From assembly GCA_938084565.1 (NCBI GenBank), contig CALKEU010000001.1, forward strand, positions 62,001 through 126,000: DNA of 64,000 bases, in the 5' to 3' direction. Both the position numbers and the translations under genes were made by a program. Below, piece by piece: positions 12,279-58,901 of this stretch. Under the pieces are notes generated by a model. It did not search any database and had not been told where the DNA came from. It saw nothing but the letters and a program-made list of their open reading frames with translations. This DNA comes from Candidatus Kapaibacterium sp. GTDB lineage: Bacteria > Bacteroidota > Ignavibacteria > Kapaibacteriales > HRBIN21. Every line of letters begins with the position of its first letter. Within the stretch, counting starts at the first letter, position 1.

Positions 12279-12572
12279 TCAGAAGCGTAGCTGCTCTATC
12301 TTCTTCGCCAGCGCTACGTCAAGCGCTGTGATACCTCCACGGTCGTGGGTAGAGAGCATCACCCGCAGCTTGTTCCAGCCATAGAGAAGCACATCGGGAT
12401 GGTGATCCATTGCTTCTGCCACGATAGCGATGGCATTGAGGAAGCCTACAGCTGCAGCGAAATTCGGCAACACAAACTCCCGCACTATGCTCTTCCCCTC
12501 ACGCTGCCACAGCGGTAATTCCTCCAATGCCTGCTGAAGCTCTTCCTCACTGAGCAGCGGAGGACGCCCCAT
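12279..12572 (-). CDS. Pterin-4a-carbinolamine dehydratase
   Basis: 97 residues. The protein shows the family layout: [11 protein letters not shown], then W...[23 protein letters not shown], and the active-site block [23 protein letters not shown] with the paired histidines and GGIT-LD. Family members dehydrate 4a-hydroxytetrahydrobiopterin during pterin recycling, and many bacterial copies moonlight or stand alone without phenylalanine hydroxylase; no hydroxylase is nearby. The gene overlaps the 3' end of trxA by 26 bp in another frame, so the pair is translationally coupled. Confidence 0.93.
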
Positions 12573-12906
12573 CGGTCGTCTCAGCCAAGAGTGCCTCCAG
12601 ACGCTCTACGAGATATCCCTTCGGGACTGCCCCAATGATAGTGTCCACGTGCTCTCCGGCACGGAACAGCAGAAGCGAAGGAATTGCCCGGATACCGTAC
12701 TGCATAGCAACACGCGGATTGTGGTCCACATCAACCTTGGCCACCTTGACACCGCGGCTGGCATACTCGCGAGCAATCTCTTCCACCACCGGTGCAATCA
12801 TCCGGCACGGCCCACACCAGATAGCCCAGAAATCCACCAACACCACCCCAGGGTACTGCAACACCTCCGTGCTAAAGGTCTGATCGGTCACATCGACAGG
12901 CTTCAT
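12547..12906 (-). CDS. trxA: Thioredoxin
   Basis: 119 residues from the ATG at 12906. The active site is WCGPC (C31, C34) in [21 protein letters not shown]; cis-Pro lies in the AIPSLLLF segment and the [15 protein letters not shown] stretch is classic. It reduces protein disulfides in the cytoplasm. The open frame extends 14 codons further, but the internal ATG fits the family's N-terminus and is close behind the promoter motif at 12950-12957. It heads the operon trxA, pterin dehydratase, eno, phosphohexomutase. Confidence 0.95.
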
Positions 12907-12949
12907 CGCTGCTACTCTCACTTCTGTACCTGACCCAAGGAAACGCAAG

Positions 12950-14620: not shown

Positions 14621-14652
14621 TCAAACAAAAACCCCCGCCAATCGGCGGGGGT
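14621..14652 (-). terminator. Rho-independent terminator of the flagellar operon
   Basis: A perfect 8-bp stem CCCCCGCC/GGCGGGGG with loop AATC (14632-14651), followed on the minus strand by TTTTTGTTTG. It lies 25 bp beyond the stop of the small Cys-rich peptide gene and ends the minus-strand flgN-to-peptide operon. Confidence 0.9.
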
Positions 14653-14676
14653 TGCTGTTCCCACAACTCACCTCTA

Positions 14677-14859
14677 TCAGTAGCCGGTGTTGACAGCATC
14701 CTGCCACACACCGGGGTTCGTTGGGTCGTTACCGCAGTATGGACATCCCGGCGCAGCGCACGGATCAGTCCCCTGCCCCTTGGCGAGCGTCATTTCCATC
14801 TCCTCCAGAAAGCGCTGCACTTCCCGCAACTGCCCGACGAACTCCATGAAGTCCTTCAT
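14677..14859 (-). CDS. 60-residue Cys-rich peptide at the end of the flagellar operon
   Basis: Starts at the ATG at 14859 behind a strong AAAGGGG Shine-Dalgarno; the open frame reaches upstream to 14922 but without a ribosome site. The product has an amphipathic, acidic helix of ~30 residues (MKDFMEFVGQLREVQRFLEEM) and a different C-terminal half, GTDPCAAPGCPYCGNDPTNP, with three cysteines in C-x4-C-x2-C spacing, ending NTGY. There is no signal peptide or membrane segment. The two-part form (helical leader, small Cys/Gly/Pro tail) resembles a ribosomally made, modified peptide precursor, or a tiny metal-binding protein; neither can be shown. It lies 66 bp after the TPR kinase stop and directly before the operon terminator. 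No RiPP-modifying enzyme is in the window. Confidence 0.7.
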   Translation of the reverse strand: MKDFMEFVGQLREVQRFLEEMEMTLAKGQGTDPCAAPGCPYCGNDPTNPGVWQDAVNTGY

Positions 14860-14925
14860 TGCTGCCCCTTTGGTTTGTTGTTGCACATCCACGTTTCCTC
14901 GCACGCCATCTACCGAAGCCAACCC

Positions 14926-17205
14926 CTATGCCATATCGGCAGATTCTCTCTCCTCGGGTGGAGGTTCTCCTGTAGCCGCTAGCGCCTCAGGGGAATAGAC
15001 GAGGCGATCTTCATCCGGGAAATACGCCACCCAGCCCGGGCGTGGGCGATACCCCTGTTCCCCTTCCTCGAGCGTTGGAGCCTCTGCTCGTAAGTGCTGC
15101 CACTCCTCTGGTTCGGGATCCCCTACGAAGTAGGGCCCTTCCCCACGCCGGAAGGGAATCTGGAGGTAGAAGATGGAGCCTTTGCCTCGGCAGGATTCGC
15201 ACCATACACGGCAACGCATACGGTCGGCGAGCCACTTGACGATATAGAGTCCCAATCCCACGCTTGGTTCCCCGAGCGTGGGATGGACATTCTCTGCCCG
15301 CCCAAGCTTCTTGAACAACTTGGGCAGCTCTGACGGCGGAATACCAACCCCTTCGTCTTCAACTGCAATCCGAGCCCCTCCATCGGCTGTACGGCGCAGC
15401 CGAATCCACACCCGTGCCCCCTTGGGGGAGTACTTGATTGCATTGAGGAGGTAGTTCGTGAGTATCTCCTGCGTGTGTGTCCAATCCATTGGCACGCGGA
15501 AGGGGTCTTCCTCGCTGTCGACGATGACCTGGATGTCTTTGTAGCTGATCTCCCGATGCTGGTAGGCAACAATGCGACGCACCAGCTCCCGGAGGTCGTC
15601 CACCTGATAGTAGTGCTGCACCCCCTTCATCTCCAGCGTCTGCCACCGGGAGAGGAGCTGCAGCTCATCACGCAGATGCTCGGAAGCCCGCAGAATATAG
15701 TCGGCCGTCTCTAGGATGACCGATGGCTCCAGCCGATTCAGCCCCTTGAGGATGAGATCGGCATTGGTCATAATTCCCCCGACGAGGTTGCGGAGCTCGT
15801 GAGAGAGGACGGAGAGCAGTGTAAAGCGCTCCTCCATGGCGCGCTGGTACTCCGAATAGGCGCGCTCGACTTCGGCGCGCTGGCGGTCTACCTCCGCTAG
15901 TGCTGTCGCCAGCTCCTCATTGCGCAGTCGGTAGAGCTCCCGCTCATAGCGCAAACGCTCCATTTCCAATTCCTTCTCCAGCACCGTGATGGCCTGCTGC
16001 CGACGCTGACCCAGGAAGCGCTCGTAGAGGGCCCAATAGCGCTTGTAGTAGTCTAGGGCCTTGTCCAGCACACCCTGCTCTTCGAAGATGCGTGCGCACA
16101 GGCGCGTAAACTCCATCTCCCAGAAGAGCATCCCATGCTGTCGCGCCAGTTGCATCCCGATGTGGTAGTGCTGCAACCCAACCTGGAAGTCCTTCATGGC
16201 AATGAGCACATCCCCCAACTCCCGCCGCAGTTTGATTGCTAGGTTGACATCCCGGAGGTGCTGGAACTTCTGGAGTATTTGGCGCAGCTCGTAGAAGGCA
16301 TCCAGTGTCTTCCCCTGGTGGAAGTAGAGCATGGCGAGCGTGGAGAGTGTGGCAGCCTCCCCGAGTTCATTTCCCATACCTTTGTACAGCGCGAGAGCTT
16401 CCTCCTGGTAGCGCTGTGCTTCCTCCCACCGGCGCTGGAGCGCCATGAGGTGCCCGAGATTCGAGAGCGCCAGAGCGAGCATGTACGTTGTCTCCGTCTC
16501 CCGCAGCAGCTCGCAGGCTTGCTGCAAGAAGGCTTCCGCCTCCTGGAAGCGCCCGAGCTGCACGTAGACACCGGCAATCCCAATTGCCGTAATGCCCAAA
16601 CCCCGCTTATCCTCCAGCTCAACCTGGTGCCGATATGCCTGCAGGAGGCGACGGAGCCCTTGCTCGAACTGCCCCAGAGCAGCATACACACTCCCAATAT
16701 TGCTCAGAGCAGCAGCCCAGTTTCGCTGTGCTAACTGATTGTGTGGATCGTTCTGCAGGAGCTGCTCACACAACTGCTGGGCCCGGCTGTAGTAGTCATA
16801 GGCCTTATCCCACTGCGCCAAGCGCATGGAGATCCCACCCAGCACGAGCAGGGTAGGGATGACCCACCGGGTCTCATCGTGGCCCTCAAACCAGGCGAGC
16901 GCTGTGCGAGCAGCCTGGAGGGCCTGCTCTGCATCGCCGGTGAAAAAGAAGAGTGCGGCACGATTGCGAAGGCAGTGGGCGCGCCTACAGTCATCGTTGA
17001 GCTCCTCGAGCAGAGATTCGGCATAAAGGGCTGCATTGAGAGCTTCCCGAGGGCGGGAATGGCACTTGGACCAGGCATACTTATTGGCGATATCCACACG
17101 CTCTGCATCGCTACTGGCGCAGCGCAGCTGCTCCTGCAGCTCCGGATCGAGCTTCTCCCAAAGATCCATCGCACCTGGCATACCTGTATTGGGGTCGACG
17201 AGCAT
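14926..17205 (-). CDS. Cytosolic TPR-repeat sensor histidine kinase
   Basis: About 759 residues from the ATG at 17205 (ATG at 17169 is an alternative; longer starts would lie inside motA). There is no signal peptide or transmembrane segment. Residues ~50-370 are TPR repeats (for example QRNWAAALSNIGSVYAALGQ and ALALSNLGHLMALQRR), then a coiled coil (~380-460). The dimerisation/phosphoacceptor helix has H469 in LSVLSHELRNLVGG; the ATPase domain shows the N box NYLLNAIKYSPKG, the G1 box DEGVGIP and the G2 box GLGLYIVKWLADR. All catalytic residues needed are there. A ~60-residue Pro/Glu-rich tail follows. TPRs bind peptides or proteins, so the input is probably an intracellular partner. Downstream of motA, it may tie motility to a phosphorelay; no cognate response regulator is adjacent. 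Confidence 0.9.
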   Translation of the reverse strand: MLVDPNTGMPGAMDLWEKLDPELQEQLRCASSDAERVDIANKYAWSKCHSRPREALNAALYAESLLEELNDDCRRAHCLRNRAALFFFTGDAEQALQAARTALAWFEGHDETRWVIPTLLVLGGISMRLAQWDKAYDYYSRAQQLCEQLLQNDPHNQLAQRNWAAALSNIGSVYAALGQFEQGLRRLLQAYRHQVELEDKRGLGITAIGIAGVYVQLGRFQEAEAFLQQACELLRETETTYMLALALSNLGHLMALQRRWEEAQRYQEEALALYKGMGNELGEAATLSTLAMLYFHQGKTLDAFYELRQILQKFQHLRDVNLAIKLRRELGDVLIAMKDFQVGLQHYHIGMQLARQHGMLFWEMEFTRLCARIFEEQGVLDKALDYYKRYWALYERFLGQRRQQAITVLEKELEMERLRYERELYRLRNEELATALAEVDRQRAEVERAYSEYQRAMEERFTLLSVLSHELRNLVGGIMTNADLILKGLNRLEPSVILETADYILRASEHLRDELQLLSRWQTLEMKGVQHYYQVDDLRELVRRIVAYQHREISYKDIQVIVDSEEDPFRVPMDWTHTQEILTNYLLNAIKYSPKGARVWIRLRRTADGGARIAVEDEGVGIPPSELPKLFKKLGRAENVHPTLGEPSVGLGLYIVKWLADRMRCRVWCESCRGKGSIFYLQIPFRRGEGPYFVGDPEPEEWQHLRAEAPTLEEGEQGYRPRPGWVAYFPDEDRLVYSPEALAATGEPPPEERESADMA

Positions 17206-17222: not shown

Positions 17223-18029
17223 TTATCGTGCCGAAAAGGGCGATTCCACGCCCGGCAACTGTTCCAAGAGACGAAGTTGCTGCTGTAAGGGGAAGCTTGC
17301 CAGCAAGCGGAGCCGGACCACCGAAGGAGGTTCCCCCTGCTGGATTGCCACCACACCCTCGGTCATCATGCGCCAGAGGTTCACCTCTTCGTGGTGGAGG
17401 GCGCGTAGCTTGTCGGCGATGGGAAGCCAAACGATGTTAGCCATGAAGATGCCCCACATTGTGGCAATGAAGGCGGTAGCGATGTGGCGGATCAAGATCG
17501 CAGGATCATCCCCGGCAGAGGCGAGCGTTGCAATAAGGCCCATGACGGTCCCGATGATGCCCATCGTCGGCGAGTAGCCCCCCATTTTGACGAACAGATT
17601 GATGTTAGCCTGGTGGCGGGCGGTGAGGAATTCAAGCTCGAGTTCACTAGCCTGCCGGAGGGCCTCGGGCTCCATGCCGTCGATACTGTGCTGGAGGAGC
17701 TTCCGCAGGTAGGGATGGTGGACTTCCGGCAGATGGCGCTCCAGACCTAAGACCCCATCCCGGCGGGCGATGGCGGCAAAGTGTACGATTTGCTCCATGA
17801 GTTGTTGGGGCTCGTAGTGCCGGGAAGCAATCGCCAGAGCAATCAGCCGTGGGATGCGCCGCACCTGCTCCCACGTGCTTCCAGCGATGGTAGCAGCGAA
17901 GGTACCGCCGAAGACAATCATCAAGGCTGGCAGCAACACGAGCATCCCCGGAGTACCGCCTTCGAGCACGAACGCTCCGAAGATGCTCCCGATGCCGAGC
18001 AGGATTCCCAGAAGCGTCGTTGCCTGCAT
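17223..18029 (-). CDS. motA: Flagellar motor stator protein MotA
   Basis: 268 residues from the ATG at 18029, which has GGTGA five bases upstream. Two N-terminal membrane helices (LLGILLGIGSIFGAFVLEGG and LVLLPALMIVFGGTFAATIAG), a cytoplasmic loop with the conserved ARRDGVLGLERHL block, and a second pair of helices with GGYSPTMGIIGTVMGLIATLA and IATAFIATMWGIFMANIVWLPI. This matches MotA/PomA, which forms the proton- or sodium-driven stator with MotB. No motB follows, as it normally would; the kinase gene takes that place. The gene begins 4 bp after the flgL stop. Confidence 0.93.
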   Translation of the reverse strand: MQATTLLGILLGIGSIFGAFVLEGGTPGMLVLLPALMIVFGGTFAATIAGSTWEQVRRIPRLIALAIASRHYEPQQLMEQIVHFAAIARRDGVLGLERHLPEVHHPYLRKLLQHSIDGMEPEALRQASELELEFLTARHQANINLFVKMGGYSPTMGIIGTVMGLIATLASAGDDPAILIRHIATAFIATMWGIFMANIVWLPIADKLRALHHEEVNLWRMMTEGVVAIQQGEPPSVVRLRLLASFPLQQQLRLLEQLPGVESPFSAR

Positions 18030-18033
18030 AGCG

Positions 18034-19005
18034 TCACCGTAGGACGTCAAAGAGGCTCAGCCCCAGAAGGCGTGCGCTCGTTTGCAGGAGGGCTTGGAGG
18101 GCCGTCTGACCCTGATGGAGTTCCACTGCCAGTCGAGCCAGGTCAGCATCTTCGGCTGCCGAGCGGAAGGCCCGCAGATGGGTGGCATAGTTCTGCAACT
18201 GCTGTTGGAGGAGCTCCCAGCGCTCCTGCCGAGCGCCAACGCGGGCTGTGGCACGGGCCAGAGAGGCCTGAAAGGCTGCCACCTGGGGCAATAGCGCTTC
18301 GAGACGCTCCCGTTCAGCAGAGGAGAGCCCTTCCTCGGCAGCCCGAGGGCTTCCGTCAGCACGGTAGGCCAGCAGGTTGTACGCTCCGAGCAGCAGGGTA
18401 AAGAGCTCTACCCCATCACGCCCGAAGAGCTCATCGGCCTGCAGCGAGAGAATCTCTGGCTGGCCTGGGAAGAGCTCTAGGGAACGCCCAGTGAAAGTGC
18501 CACGGAATTCCACCCGCAGTCCCGAAGGATTCTCCTGCGTGGGCAGCTCCTGCCGGAGGAGGAAGGGCCCTTGGCCATCGGGGAAGAGTGTGCGCGTCCC
18601 ACCCAAGAGATAGCGCCCATCGGCATGGGCATTGGCAAGGGCGAGCATATCGTCCAGACGTTGGCGCAGCTGCTGGGCTAGGAAGGCGGGTTTGTCGAGA
18701 TTCTTCGGGTCGAGCGCCTGCACGAGGAGTTGCCTCACCTGCAGGAGTGTATCCTCGAGCGCCTCAGTAAAGGTGTGCAGGAGCTGCTGTTCCTGGCTCA
18801 TGGCCTGCAGAAGTTGGATACGGCGTTCAGTGAGCTCCTGGAGGAGGTCAAGCCGGCGGGCCCTGCTGTAGGCAGAGGGGTCGTCGGCCGGAGAGGTAAT
18901 CTGCTTTCCCGTTGCCAGCTGTTGCTGGAGGCTCAGCAACCGTTGCTGGAGGCGCTGAAGTCCGTATTCGGCCGTGCGGAAGGGCTGTTGCCAGGCAATG
19001 CGCAT
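18034..19005 (-). CDS. flgL: Flagellar hook-filament junction protein FlgL
   Basis: 323 residues from the ATG at 19005, 1 bp after the flgK stop. The flagellin-like N-terminus (QPFRTAEYGLQRLQQRLLSLQQQLATGKQITSPADDPSAYSRARRL in outline) and the helical C-terminus ending in LARLAVELHQGQTALQALLQTSARLLGLSLFDVL are the two parts of a FlgL/HAP3 coiled coil, with LLGGTRTLFPD in between. It links the hook-associated protein FlgK to the filament. The order flgN-flgK-flgL is the usual one. Confidence 0.9.
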   Translation of the reverse strand: MRIAWQQPFRTAEYGLQRLQQRLLSLQQQLATGKQITSPADDPSAYSRARRLDLLQELTERRIQLLQAMSQEQQLLHTFTEALEDTLLQVRQLLVQALDPKNLDKPAFLAQQLRQRLDDMLALANAHADGRYLLGGTRTLFPDGQGPFLLRQELPTQENPSGLRVEFRGTFTGRSLELFPGQPEILSLQADELFGRDGVELFTLLLGAYNLLAYRADGSPRAAEEGLSSAERERLEALLPQVAAFQASLARATARVGARQERWELLQQQLQNYATHLRAFRSAAEDADLARLAVELHQGQTALQALLQTSARLLGLSLFDVLR

Positions 19006-19006
19006 G

Positions 19007-20419
19007 TCAGGTACCCATGCGGAGGAGGGTATCCAGCAGAGAGGCTGCAACGGTTGCCACCCGGGCGGCAGCCTCGTAAGCTTTCTGGTAGCGGATGAGG
19101 TTCATTGCTTCCTCGTCCATGTTGACTCCTGACAAAGCCTGCCGCTGCGTCTCGAGCTGCTGGAGGCTGCTCTGGAGCCACTCATTGCGCTGCTGTGCAC
19201 TAGCCAGTATCTCTCCTATGCGAGTCACCATCGCCGCAAAGAAGCCCTGCGCCGTGTAACCTCCCGCAAAGACAGGCAGTTCGGCCAGCGCGAGGAGCTG
19301 TTGCGCAATAGCGGAGTTGCCGGGTTCGCCAGCTCTATCGGCCAAGGGTAGCGCCTGCGGGGCAGCGGCCACATCCGCAGAAAGGCGAAGTGTCTCCATA
19401 CTCTGGCCCTCGAAGAGGCGGCGCCCAGGCGGAGAGGGCCCCGTATCGTTGAGCCCATAGCCGCGAGCTACAAGAGCATTGACGCGGTCGACCCACTGCG
19501 CTACGAAGCTATCCAGCTCACGGGGCAGCGACAATGCCGTACCCTGCTCCTGGGGATCGAGCGTGACATTGTAGTGTTCGAGCAGGCTCCCAAGCTCTCC
19601 TTCGGCAAAGGAGAGCACCGGGTCCGTCCCTCCAGCTGGCAGACTCACCAGGAGCTCGGCATGGTATTCCCCGGTTGCCCTCACGGAGCTCTGCAGACGC
19701 AGTGGGAGCACGGTCGTCTCGGCTAAGAGAGTATGTCCTGCCAGGGAGACAGTGACCCTACCGCGGGCATCCACTGTGGCAACAACAGGGGCAAGACGAG
19801 CCAGTTCGTTGAGGAGGCGTGTCTGTTCATCGGCAAGCGCTTGAGCCCGCTCACTTCCCTCAGGAGCCAGAGCCCGAGCGGCATTGACATCGGCCAGCTG
19901 CTGGAGCAGTCGATTAAAGGTCTCCGTACGTTCGGACAGCTGCTGGAGGAGCTCTGCGCGTAGGGCACGGAGCTCTGCCCCCAGCTGCCGGAATCCTGCA
20001 GCCAGCTCAGCAGCCCGCTGCAGCAAGAGCTCTCGTACTGCGAGATCCTCGGGCCGTACCACTGCTGCATGGACAGCATCGAAAAAGCGCTGGAACAGAC
20101 CCGCTATGGCCTCCTGACCTGCTTCCCCAAAGAGCGCAACCAAACGCTGGAGGAGGAGCTCATCGGCTTGCGTACGGCTCTGACGACTGAGCAGACTGCG
20201 GATCTGCGTATCCAAGTAACGATGCCGGAACTCCGCCAGCAGTTCTACTCGTACCCCCGTACCCATCCGCCCGGGCTCGGGGACAATAGGGCTGAAGTGC
20301 GCGCGGCGCCGCGTGTAGCCAGGGGTGTTCACATTGGCAATGTTCCCACTGGTGATGTCGAGAGCACTCTGGTGGGCCAGCAAACTACTGCGGGCAATGT
20401 GGAGGGCACGAAAACCCAT
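19007..20419 (-). CDS. flgK: Flagellar hook-associated protein FlgK
   Basis: 470 residues. The rod/hook family N-terminus is plain (ARSSLLAHQSALDITSGNIANVNTPGYTRRR), and the C-terminus has GVNMDEEAMNLIRYQKAYEAAARVATV, the standard closing helix of axial flagellar proteins. The middle carries the FlgK-type region QLADVNAARALAPEGSERAQALADEQTRLLNELA. It is exported through the flagellar type III apparatus and caps the hook before filament growth. Its start lies 3 bp after flgN. Confidence 0.93.
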   Translation of the reverse strand: MGFRALHIARSSLLAHQSALDITSGNIANVNTPGYTRRRAHFSPIVPEPGRMGTGVRVELLAEFRHRYLDTQIRSLLSRQSRTQADELLLQRLVALFGEAGQEAIAGLFQRFFDAVHAAVVRPEDLAVRELLLQRAAELAAGFRQLGAELRALRAELLQQLSERTETFNRLLQQLADVNAARALAPEGSERAQALADEQTRLLNELARLAPVVATVDARGRVTVSLAGHTLLAETTVLPLRLQSSVRATGEYHAELLVSLPAGGTDPVLSFAEGELGSLLEHYNVTLDPQEQGTALSLPRELDSFVAQWVDRVNALVARGYGLNDTGPSPPGRRLFEGQSMETLRLSADVAAAPQALPLADRAGEPGNSAIAQQLLALAELPVFAGGYTAQGFFAAMVTRIGEILASAQQRNEWLQSSLQQLETQRQALSGVNMDEEAMNLIRYQKAYEAAARVATVAASLLDTLLRMGT

Positions 20420-20422
20420 CGC

Positions 20423-20788
20423 CTACGCCTGCCGATTGTAGAGATGTCCATCGGGTGCCAGCGCCTCCCAGAGAGCCGCCGTATGCTCGTGCGCCCGCTG
20501 CGCCAAGATCCGATTCAGCTGGAGGAGATGCCGGACTTCGCGGGCCTGGATGCGAATACGCTCCCACCGCTGCTGCAAGGAAGGCTCTCGTTCGATACGC
20601 TCTCCCAGCTGCACACATTGCCGCTGCAGCGCCTCCAGTTGCTGCAGGAGAGCCTGCTGCTGCGCCACCAGCGCTTCGACGGCGCCGACCCGGAGCGCAA
20701 TCAATGCCTGTCGCTGCTGCCACGCATTCTGCTGCAGCGCCACCAGGGTTGTCTCAAGCTGCGCCAATATCTTGTGCACCTCTTCCAT
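20423..20788 (-). CDS. flgN: FlgN-like flagellar export chaperone
   Basis: 121 residues, all alpha-helical and Gln/Leu-rich, beginning MEEVHKILAQLETTLVALQQ. The start at 20788 is chosen because TTGGAGG sits 7-8 bp upstream; a start at 20812 has no ribosome site, and the longer open frame upstream is not coding-like. FlgN proteins bind FlgK and FlgL before export; sequence identity in this family is low, so the call rests mainly on size, helical form and position as the first gene before flgK. It is also the first gene of the operon. Confidence 0.75.
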   Translation of the reverse strand: MEEVHKILAQLETTLVALQQNAWQQRQALIALRVGAVEALVAQQQALLQQLEALQRQCVQLGERIEREPSLQQRWERIRIQAREVRHLLQLNRILAQRAHEHTAALWEALAPDGHLYNRQA

Positions 20789-20908
20789 CGGGCTGCCTCC
20801 AATGCTGTCCATTATCGCCGGAAAGTATCGGCAGCTTTGGCAGAGCCTTGAGTGGCTCAGCCGTGGCTTTCGCAGGCTAAGTGCCTCGGCACCAGGGGGG
20901 CTTTTGCG

Positions 20909-53907: not shown

Positions 53908-54376
53908 GGGTGAGCCGCGAAATGAGTCGCTGCACGATGAGTGCTGGGAGTTCATCGGCCCGCTCCTCGGCACGGTAGAGATTGCGAGCTTGCGCCTCTT
54001 CGCGCTTTGTGCGGACGTCGTAGATGTAGGCATTGACCAAAATCTTGCCCGGTAGCAGGTTAAAGTTGCCCGTGAGCACCTTGTCCGCACGGAGCAGTTG
54101 GGCTGCCTTCCAGATATCGGAGTCATACTGCGGCGTTGTGGGATCCACATTGAGTTCACCGAGCACCATCTCCAGGGAATCCCGGGGGATGAGTACGTAA
54201 TGCCGCTGCGCCGTATCGGCCTGCTGCAAGAGTGCGGCGATACTATCGGCGAATCGATAGCACCAGCGGTTGTAGCGTAAGTCTCCATCCATGTTGCGGA
54301 AGGGCAAAACAGCCAGACGGACTTGTGCCCAGGCTCCAAAGGTGAGGAGGAAGAAGAGTGCCCACTGCTGCATCAT
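53897..54376 (-). CDS. Small exported TolB/CsgG-N-like protein
   Basis: 159 residues from the ATG at 54376, which overlaps the Hpt stop (ATGA); upstream codons are in another gene. Signal peptide MMQQWALFFLLTFGAWAQ. The mature part reads VRLAVLPFRNMDGDLRYNRWCYRFADSIAALLQQ, then YVLIPRDSLEMVLGELNVDPTTP and AAQLLRADKVLTGNFNLLPGKILVNAYIYDVRT, the alternating beta-alpha pattern of TolB N-terminal/CsgG/LpoB-type domains. These act in the periplasm as accessory parts of envelope complexes. No TolA or Pal is near, so the partner is unknown. It sits between hpt and rimM in one coupled run. Confidence 0.75.
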   Translation of the reverse strand: MMQQWALFFLLTFGAWAQVRLAVLPFRNMDGDLRYNRWCYRFADSIAALLQQADTAQRHYVLIPRDSLEMVLGELNVDPTTPQYDSDIWKAAQLLRADKVLTGNFNLLPGKILVNAYIYDVRTKREEAQARNLYRAEERADELPALIVQRLISRLTHEH

Positions 54377-54681
54377 CCCTTGTTGGCAGTCTGTTCCAAC
54401 ATACGCTGGAGGGATCCGAGCGTAGCCAGGAGGCGTGCGTAGAGGGAGGGAACCTCGTCCCAATGGTGCGTCCGAGCACATTCCATGAGTTGGATCCCCA
54501 CTTCGGCAACATCGGTCAGCCCGAATTGCAGGCTGCTGCCCTTGAGCGTATGTCCCAAGCGGTATAGTCTGGCTTCGTCGTGCTCCTGGGCGGCATGCAC
54601 AATTTGTATGGCCTCTTCTTGCCAATTGCGGAGAAATTCTGGCAGGAGCTCGCGCAGGATTGGGTCATTGGGTAGCTGCAT
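54373..54681 (-). CDS. Stand-alone Hpt phosphotransfer protein
   Basis: 102 residues, all helical. The phosphoacceptor motif is LGHTLKGSSLQFGL (His near residue 44) with the usual G-S pair, followed by LMECARTHHWDEVPSLYARL. Hpt domains shuttle phosphate between receiver domains in multi-step relays. No hybrid kinase or receiver adjoins it; PorX and the TPR kinase elsewhere in the window are candidate partners by inference only. AGGTG precedes the ATG at 54681, and a TAAATTCG promoter-like element is at 54705. It lies directly downstream of the RNase P RNA. Confidence 0.88.
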   Translation of the reverse strand: MQLPNDPILRELLPEFLRNWQEEAIQIVHAAQEHDEARLYRLGHTLKGSSLQFGLTDVAEVGIQLMECARTHHWDEVPSLYARLLATLGSLQRMLEQTANKG

Positions 54682-57199: not shown

Positions 57200-57228
57200 A
57201 GGTGACGGAGGACAGATGTCCAGTAACG

Positions 57229-57236
57229 CAAACTTA
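57229..57236 (-). promoter_or_regulatory. TAAGTTTG -7 promoter element upstream of nif3
   Basis: Minus strand TAAGTTTG, an exact TAnnTTTG match, 30 bp before the ATG at 57199, in the 124-bp divergent spacer with porX. The rest of the spacer has no clear plus-strand TAnnTTTG for porX. Confidence 0.55.
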
Positions 57237-57323
57237 CAAAATCTCCTCGGGGCAGCTGGCCCCCGCTGTAATGGGCTACGCGCTTATTCGTCCTCTTCGA
57301 GGAAACTCTCCCACGGAGGAAGG

Positions 57324-58901
57324 ATGAACTCAGCACGCGGAGCCATTCTCTGGGTTGACGACGAGGTAGAGCTGCTCCAGCCCTACCTTCTCTTCCTGCG
57401 CCAGCACGGATACACGGTGGAGACGACCACTTCTGGAGAAGATGCCATCGAGCTCGTGCAGCAGCGCCCCTACGACCTCATCTTCCTCGACGAGATGATG
57501 ATGGGCATAACAGGGCTGGAAACACTCGAAGTGCTCAAGGAGCTCGCCCCGCATATTCCCGTCGTCATGGTCACTAAGAATGAGGCCGAAACCCTCATGG
57601 AGGAGGCTATCGGACGTAAAATCGACGATTACCTCACCAAGCCGGTCAATCCGGCACAAATCCTGGCTGCGTGCAAGAAATTCATCGAAGCCCGCCGCAT
57701 TACAGGACAGCGTCTGACGCAGGCATACCTGCAGGGTTTCCACTCTATCAATCGACGTCTTCAGGCACCGCTGAGCTGGTACGACTGGCTGGACATCTAC
57801 TTGCAGCTGACCACCTGGAGCATGGAACTAGAGCAGCACCCGGAACTACAGCTCCACGAGACCCTCTCGGCACAATGGCGGGAATGCAATGCCGCCTTCG
57901 GCAGCTTTATCGAGCACACCTACGATCGCTGGATACAGAATCCAACGGAGGAGGATGTCCCGACTCTTTCGCCCTTCATCCTGGATCGGTTTGTCCTGCC
58001 ACGTCTCTCACCGGAACGTCCAGTAGTGTTTATCCTCATCGACTGCCTACGGCTGGACCAGTGGCTCGTCCTTGAAGAGTTGCTCCATCCCTTCTACACC
58101 ATAGAGCGCAACTACGCCTGCTCGATTCTCCCGACGGCAACCATGTATGCCCGCAACGCCATCTTTGCGGGACTCTTCCCTCTCCAGATTGCGCAGCACT
58201 ATCCGCAGTGGTGGAAGGACACTGGTGACGAACAGAGCCAGAACGCTTACGAACGTCAGCTGCTGGAAGCTTACTTCCAACGCCGTCGCATCGGGATCCC
58301 AGGAGGGATAAGCTACATCAAGATTATCGACCCTACCTTCGGCCGCAAGATCGAGCAGGAACTCGGACGCCACCTCCGCTATGGACTCATTGCCATTGTC
58401 ATCAACGCCGTCGACATGATCATCCACTCCCGCTCGGAGGTCCCAATTCTGCGTGAAATCGTTCCCAATGAAGCCGCCTACCGTGCCTTGACTCGCTCCT
58501 GGTTCCAGCACTCGACTCTCTTTTCCATGTTGCGTACCCTGGCCGCCACAGAACCCAAACCCACCGTGATTATCACCACTGACCATGGCTCCATCCGCTG
58601 TCTGCGCCCGCTGAAGGCTTACGGCGACCGAGAGACGACGACCAACCTCCGCTACAAGCTCGGACGCAATGTCCGCACAGATCACGACCGCGCTGTAGTC
58701 CGCCTTCGCGATCCGCGCCAGTGGCAGCTCCCCACAAGTAGTGCCGTTACCAGCATGCTCATTGCCAAGGAAGATTACTACTTCGTCTACCCCAACGACT
58801 ACCACCACTACGCCCAGCGCTACCGAGACAGCTTCCAGCACGGCGGCATTTCCCTCGAGGAGATGATCGTCCCCGTTGCCATTTTAGAGCCCCGCCCATA
58901 G
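57324..58901 (+). CDS. porX: PorX-type response regulator with PglZ domain
   Basis: 525 residues from the ATG at 57324, behind GGAGGAAGG. The receiver spans 1-120: acidic pair D12/D13 (LWVDDEVELL), phosphorylated D56 (LIFLDEMMMG), T84 and K106 (YLTKPVNP). A helical linker (~125-215) leads to an alkaline-phosphatase-like PglZ domain (~225-520) with FILIDCLRLDQWLVL, SILPTATMYARNAIF and VIITTDHGSIRC, the metal and nucleophile segments. PorX is phosphorylated by the kinase PorY in known species and controls T9SS gene expression and cargo secretion; the PglZ domain is a phosphodiesterase. No porY is adjacent. It supports an active T9SS in this organism. Confidence 0.94.
   Translation: MNSARGAILWVDDEVELLQPYLLFLRQHGYTVETTTSGEDAIELVQQRPYDLIFLDEMMMGITGLETLEVLKELAPHIPVVMVTKNEAETLMEEAIGRKIDDYLTKPVNPAQILAACKKFIEARRITGQRLTQAYLQGFHSINRRLQAPLSWYDWLDIYLQLTTWSMELEQHPELQLHETLSAQWRECNAAFGSFIEHTYDRWIQNPTEEDVPTLSPFILDRFVLPRLSPERPVVFILIDCLRLDQWLVLEELLHPFYTIERNYACSILPTATMYARNAIFAGLFPLQIAQHYPQWWKDTGDEQSQNAYERQLLEAYFQRRRIGIPGGISYIKIIDPTFGRKIEQELGRHLRYGLIAIVINAVDMIIHSRSEVPILREIVPNEAAYRALTRSWFQHSTLFSMLRTLAATEPKPTVIITTDHGSIRCLRPLKAYGDRETTTNLRYKLGRNVRTDHDRAVVRLRDPRQWQLPTSSAVTSMLIAKEDYYFVYPNDYHHYAQRYRDSFQHGGISLEEMIVPVAILEPRP

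Follow-up and report, generated by a model that had tools for sequence, protein, structure and literature searches.

A soluble TPR histidine kinase and a small three-cysteine protein close a predicted flagellar operon in a Kapaibacterium-like genus

Introduction

TPR histidine kinases are plentiful across several families of the order to which the bacterium analyzed here belongs, and to our knowledge most of them have no known input. A described sensor of this kind is FimS of Porphyromonas gingivalis, in which a TPR sensor region is fused to a HisKA-HATPase module, as it is here, and whose TPR motifs have been proposed to bind a polypeptide (PMC11053733). FimS was also the best NCBIfam match of the kinase reported below (111 bits; cut-off 600). 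However, FimS senses in the periplasm and has two transmembrane helices, whereas the present kinase is predicted to be soluble, is flagellum-linked, and is accompanied by a small protein encoded in cis and by an extra C-terminal tail.

In Bacillus subtilis, the histidine kinase KinA is acted upon inside the cell by Sda, a helical protein of very small size (PMC7430163). Sda is a two-helix hairpin located on the DHp domain, whereas the small protein described here has one helix (in a low-confidence model) and a Cys-containing tail, and the TPR array is its suspected site; no sequence match was found between the two. In RRNPP/Rap-Phr systems, a TPR protein is encoded with a small gene downstream, and Phr-type peptides are exported and then re-imported. 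The present locus shares the downstream small gene, but its product is partly helical with no obvious signal sequence, unlike Phr peptides, and the TPR array is fused to a kinase, with no HTH and no phosphatase role (Pfam detected TPR and kinase domains only). With neither a Rap/HTH architecture nor an obvious signal sequence, a reading as a Phr-type secreted peptide is not supported. Finally, the catalytic core resembles that of Thermotoga maritima HK853, which it matches best in both fold and sequence (33% identical residues when structurally aligned), although HK853 has neither a TPR array nor a small partner.

Here we describe this locus in a 64,000-nucleotide stretch of a Candidatus Kapaibacterium sp. 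genome (hereafter, the window). Its host falls within a genus of Kapaibacterium-like MAGs with genomes of 1.8-2.0 Mb; the named records among its relatives are 'Candidatus Kapaibacterium sp. SKYG35', 'Bacterium HR21 (HRbin21)' and Bacteroidota MAGs, and the record names suggest a genus of thermophilic, hot-spring bacteria.

Organization of the locus

The stretch 14677-17205, read on the minus strand, encodes the kinase and a 60-residue Cys-containing protein, which together close a flgN-flgK-flgL-motA series (Table 1). motA ends 17 bases before the kinase gene, and flgL, flgK and flgN lie further upstream on the same strand, separated by short gaps. The kinase and small genes are 66 bases apart in the window and 66-101 bases apart across the five genomes that carry them. 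A GC-rich hairpin followed by a T run was found 3′ of the small gene at all five homologous loci, and purine stretches resembling a Shine-Dalgarno sequence precede its ATG. The genes from flgN to the small protein are predicted to form one operon, and gene calls, Pfam matches and the terminator bore out the order given in the original prediction, in which kinase, small gene and terminator follow flgN-flgK-flgL-motA.

Table 1. Features of the locus, with positions in the window
Feature	Position	Strand	Evidence or remark
Small Cys protein gene, 60 aa + stop	14677..14859	-	Kept in 5 genus members, dN/dS ~0.1
Acidic amphipathic helix of small protein (residues 1-23)	14791..14859	-	19/23 columns invariant; modelled helix 2-26
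C-x4-C-x2-C motif (CAAPGCPYC, residues 34-42)	14734..14760	-	Three Cys and PGCPYC invariant
Intrinsic terminator at operon end	14630..14653	-	Hairpin and T run
Soluble TPR histidine kinase, 759 aa	14926..17205	-	Pfam domains and model
TPR array, ~nine repeats (residues 33-378)	16072..17109	-	Groove conserved within genus
Kinase C-terminal tail (residues 688-735)	15001..15144	-	Outside out-of-genus matches; most conserved part of kinase
motA	17223..18026	-	Domain match
flgL	18034..19005	-	Position and conservation
flgK	19007..20419	-	Position and conservation
flgN	20423..20812	-	Pfam FlgN 31 bits, cut-off 30.5

A ATGTTGAAC-like string was also observed about 20-40 bases 5′ of the ATG of the small gene (14870-14895 in the window, and at the homologous loci). 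It is exact in three relatives and degenerate in the window and in G005. The string could be a regulatory site or a chance occurrence, and had too little support to be retained as a site.

The absence of motB behind motA had been highlighted in the original prediction. motB is indeed absent from the stretch, and two motB-like genes occur elsewhere in the genome (C2:50724 and C4:24163). Other families of the order likewise have no motB behind motA, so that its placement elsewhere is an order-wide habit and was discarded as a clue. One of the two motB-like genes stands in a motB-csrA-regulator arrangement (G000 C2:50698-52867; L125 6698-8868), which was observed in the four genus members checked, and regulator and motB are no more than ~2.5 kb apart in several other families. 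This regulator consists of a receiver domain and a Pro-rich tail; no output domain was recognised. It tracks motA across the order: among 61 genomes, it was present in 34 of the 36 with motA and absent in 23 of the 25 without (thresholds of E <= 1e-35 for the regulator and E <= 1e-25 for motA). No regulator gene lies within the kinase operon itself. The receiver-only protein is possibly an undescribed flagellar regulator, and is the leading candidate partner of the kinase by association only, both being flagellum-linked.

Two further signalling proteins were noted in the window: a response regulator fused to a PglZ domain (57225-58901), an architecture that also characterizes the type IX secretion protein PorX, and a stand-alone HPt protein (54373-54681, minus strand).

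Conservation and nature of the small protein

The small protein (MKDFMEFVGQLREVQRFLEEMEMTLAKGQGTDPCAAPGCPYCGNDPTNPGVWQDAVNTGY, 60 residues) has its cysteines spaced as C34-x4-C39-x2-C42. Five genomes encode it, at 70-82% identity to the copy in the window, and 34 of its 60 positions do not vary, among them all three Cys and most of the N-terminal helix (Table 1). Pairwise dS was at least 1.2 (near saturation) against a dN of 0.07-0.26, pN within the helix was only 0.02-0.06, and in the most distant pair identity reached 70%, compared with 54% for FlgK and 51% for FlgL. Judged by these substitution patterns, the small gene is real and under purifying selection, and its product is a genuine, previously unnamed family of very narrow range. 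AlphaFold modelled the protein alone as a helix at residues 2-26 (pLDDT ~73) with a disordered tail, at low overall confidence (pLDDT 57.6); together with a net helix charge of -3, this agrees with the acidic helical front proposed earlier.

CPYC is also the active-site motif of glutaredoxins. The invariance of PGCPYC, and the presence nearby of a thioredoxin gene (12547-12948) that is a conserved neighbour within the genus, would suit a general redox or metal-handling protein residing in the operon by chance. However, a glutaredoxin has a thioredoxin fold around CPYC, whereas Pfam and NCBIfam gave no glutaredoxin or other family match for the small protein, and no strands were predicted. Moreover, one genus member (G004, see below) lost the small protein with motility and retained the thioredoxin neighbourhood, and we consider such a general role quite improbable. 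A PDB sequence search likewise gave no match (best E 0.79). Three Cys alone make no standard zinc site, and a zinc ribbon has two Cys/His knuckles supplying four ligands, compared with three invariant Cys and no invariant His here; a site completed by Asp or by a dimer is conceivable.

An acidic helix resembling a leader, ahead of a tail with Cys, is also what one might expect of a RiPP precursor or of the precursor of a secreted signal peptide, and a modified-peptide precursor had been raised as an alternative. Yet searches of three genus genomes for three families (YcaO, SPASM and LANC_like) found none of them, the neighbouring genes include no exporter or modifying gene, inspection of the N-terminus revealed an acidic helix instead of a signal-peptide pattern, and the tail is conserved between species rather than variable. 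On these searches of three enzyme families, a modified-peptide reading is not supported, and we judge such an origin very unlikely.

In the window, the small gene lies in frame with the kinase gene, 22 codons past its stop, as if it were a former kinase C-terminus that is now separate or joined by read-through. But the frame differs in three of the five genomes and extra stops intervene in a fourth, and the small gene has the Shine-Dalgarno-like purines of its own mentioned above. Since the frame is not kept, a read-through or split-gene origin was refuted as a conserved arrangement, and we give it almost no weight.

Distribution, co-inheritance and loss

The small gene directly follows the kinase gene in five of the six genus members, that is, in every carrier, and it was not seen without the kinase in any of the six genomes. 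The adjacency and the invariant cysteines that the original prediction had asked for were thus both found, and kinase and small protein are strictly co-inherited in these six genomes.

The sixth member, G004, lacks motA, motB, an intact kinase and the small protein. At the matching locus flgK-flgL-motA-kinase-small gene has been lost, and the retained flgN is followed by a scar of ~740 bases and then by an idh-trx-pcd-eno-pgm neighbourhood. The scar contains two collinear pieces resembling the kinase TPR region, which score 29.6 and 25.0 bits (joint E 2.6e-6), the best single score among 60 mononucleotide shuffles being 25.0. With moderate support from this similarity, the scar probably holds a decayed remnant of a kinase that was lost with motility, which suggests that the kinase was probably ancestral to the genus; no remnant of the small gene was visible in the scar. 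With its intact-looking flgN and probable kinase fragment, this locus (L162 7860-8950) appears to be a flagellar operon caught in the middle of decay.

Outside the genus, no relatives of the small protein were found in 391 genomes of the class, in GTDB genome contigs or in viral contigs. Three weak matches in the class were rejected, as they covered only 22-31 positions, and Cys-rich small ORFs behind other TPR kinases were unconvincing chance ORFs only. In other families, most of 20 loci have flgN-flgK-flgL-motA, in which motA comes last and is followed by neither a kinase nor motB. Because the operon of these families usually ends at motA, the pair is, on the six genus members covered here, a genus-specific addition to an old operon.

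The main rival explanation is that the small protein serves the flagellum, for example by assisting MotA or FlgN-bound FlgK/FlgL, and shares only its transcript with a kinase whose groove binds something else. All upstream neighbours are flagellar, and kinase and small protein track flagella in addition to each other. However, flagellated relatives of other families have flgN-flgK-flgL-motA with no detectable small protein, indicating that it is not a general flagellar part, and it occurs only where the kinase does. On this evidence we regard a purely flagellar role as unlikely, if less so than the other alternatives. Because kinase and small protein were gained together and went missing together in the one congener that lost its flagella, they probably form one motility-control unit.

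The kinase and its TPR groove

In the kinase, a TPR array (~nine repeats) and a long coiled coil precede HisKA, HATPase_c and the C-terminal tail, and neither the sequence nor the model shows an apparent transmembrane segment. Pfam scores were 96.9 bits for TPR_12 and 77.6 bits for HATPase_c; HisKA scored 20.4 bits, below its cut-off of 26.9, with a SHELRN H-box present, and the H, N and G boxes were seen in the alignment. By these domain matches it is a soluble TPR histidine kinase of known type, with its TPR array at the N-terminus as originally described. Foldseek matched the core to HK853, and the closest PDB fold to the TPR part was LGN/Pins, several matched entries of which are complexes with a bound partner.

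To define the groove, the TPR consensus was used to number repeats 2-9, and positions 2, 5, 9, 12 and 13, which face the groove in the TPR fold, were chosen. In the genus (five kinases), invariance held at 18 of 40 groove positions (45%) versus 41 of 219 other non-structural positions (19%); the Fisher p of 0.0007 is a guide only, as positions are not independent. Pairwise identity within the genus was 65% for the groove and 49% for other positions, whereas in seven TPR kinases of other families the groove was the least conserved class (12% versus 23% identity). The concave groove of the array is unusually conserved in the genus, and its constancy here and variation elsewhere suggest that the groove has a single, fixed ligand. 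Among its invariant positions are R80, R128, H252, H296, R328 and R368. Such Arg and His residues would suit an acidic helix like that of the small protein, which is the simplest candidate ligand; the ligand could also be another conserved protein, such as FlgN or a flagellar export substrate.

The C-terminal tail is another candidate docking site. Its residues 688-735 follow the pattern DPEPEEW..LRAD.PT.EEGE..YRPRPGWVAYFPDEDRL and are 54% invariant in the genus, compared with 28% for the TPR array, and matches to kinases outside the genus stop short of it. A beta-hairpin is predicted in this segment.

Kinase and small protein were also modelled as one tethered chain, for which the naturally in-frame window sequence was used and the TAG of the kinase was translated as Gln (no read-through is implied). 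The kinase had a mean pLDDT of 82 and the helix of the small protein 71-76, compared with ~73 alone, and the small protein was not confidently placed. As its helix was no more confident tethered than alone, the model spoke neither for nor against docking. The proposal that the small protein is a ligand or regulator of the kinase thus stands in part: adjacency, the invariant cysteines and the conserved groove favour it, with binding itself a prediction.

Discussion

Kinase and small protein may constitute one genus-specific signalling module on a late flagellar operon, with the small protein regulating the kinase; this is the reading that we prefer, and we judge its probability to be about even. 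The small protein would act inside the cell as a regulator dedicated to the kinase: the conserved acidic helix would dock on the TPR array, whose groove carries the conserved Arg and His residues, or on the C-terminal tail, and its three-cysteine tail would hold a metal or sense the redox state, such that kinase activity would shift with the cell's metal or thiol state. In a less supported step, the phosphoryl group would pass to the receiver-only regulator beside motB and csrA, and motor output or flagellar gene expression would then follow the signal. In full, this would be a new one-operon sensor, a soluble TPR kinase that receives its input from a cis-encoded small protein with a three-Cys metal or redox switch and is wired to the motor via the motB/csrA-linked receiver; we offer this complete scheme tentatively, as possible but doubtful.

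A fixed, co-encoded partner makes the question of what TPR kinases bind testable with two purified proteins. In addition, if the two proteins are indeed partners, the pair would show how a lineage equips an old flagellar operon with a new control input.
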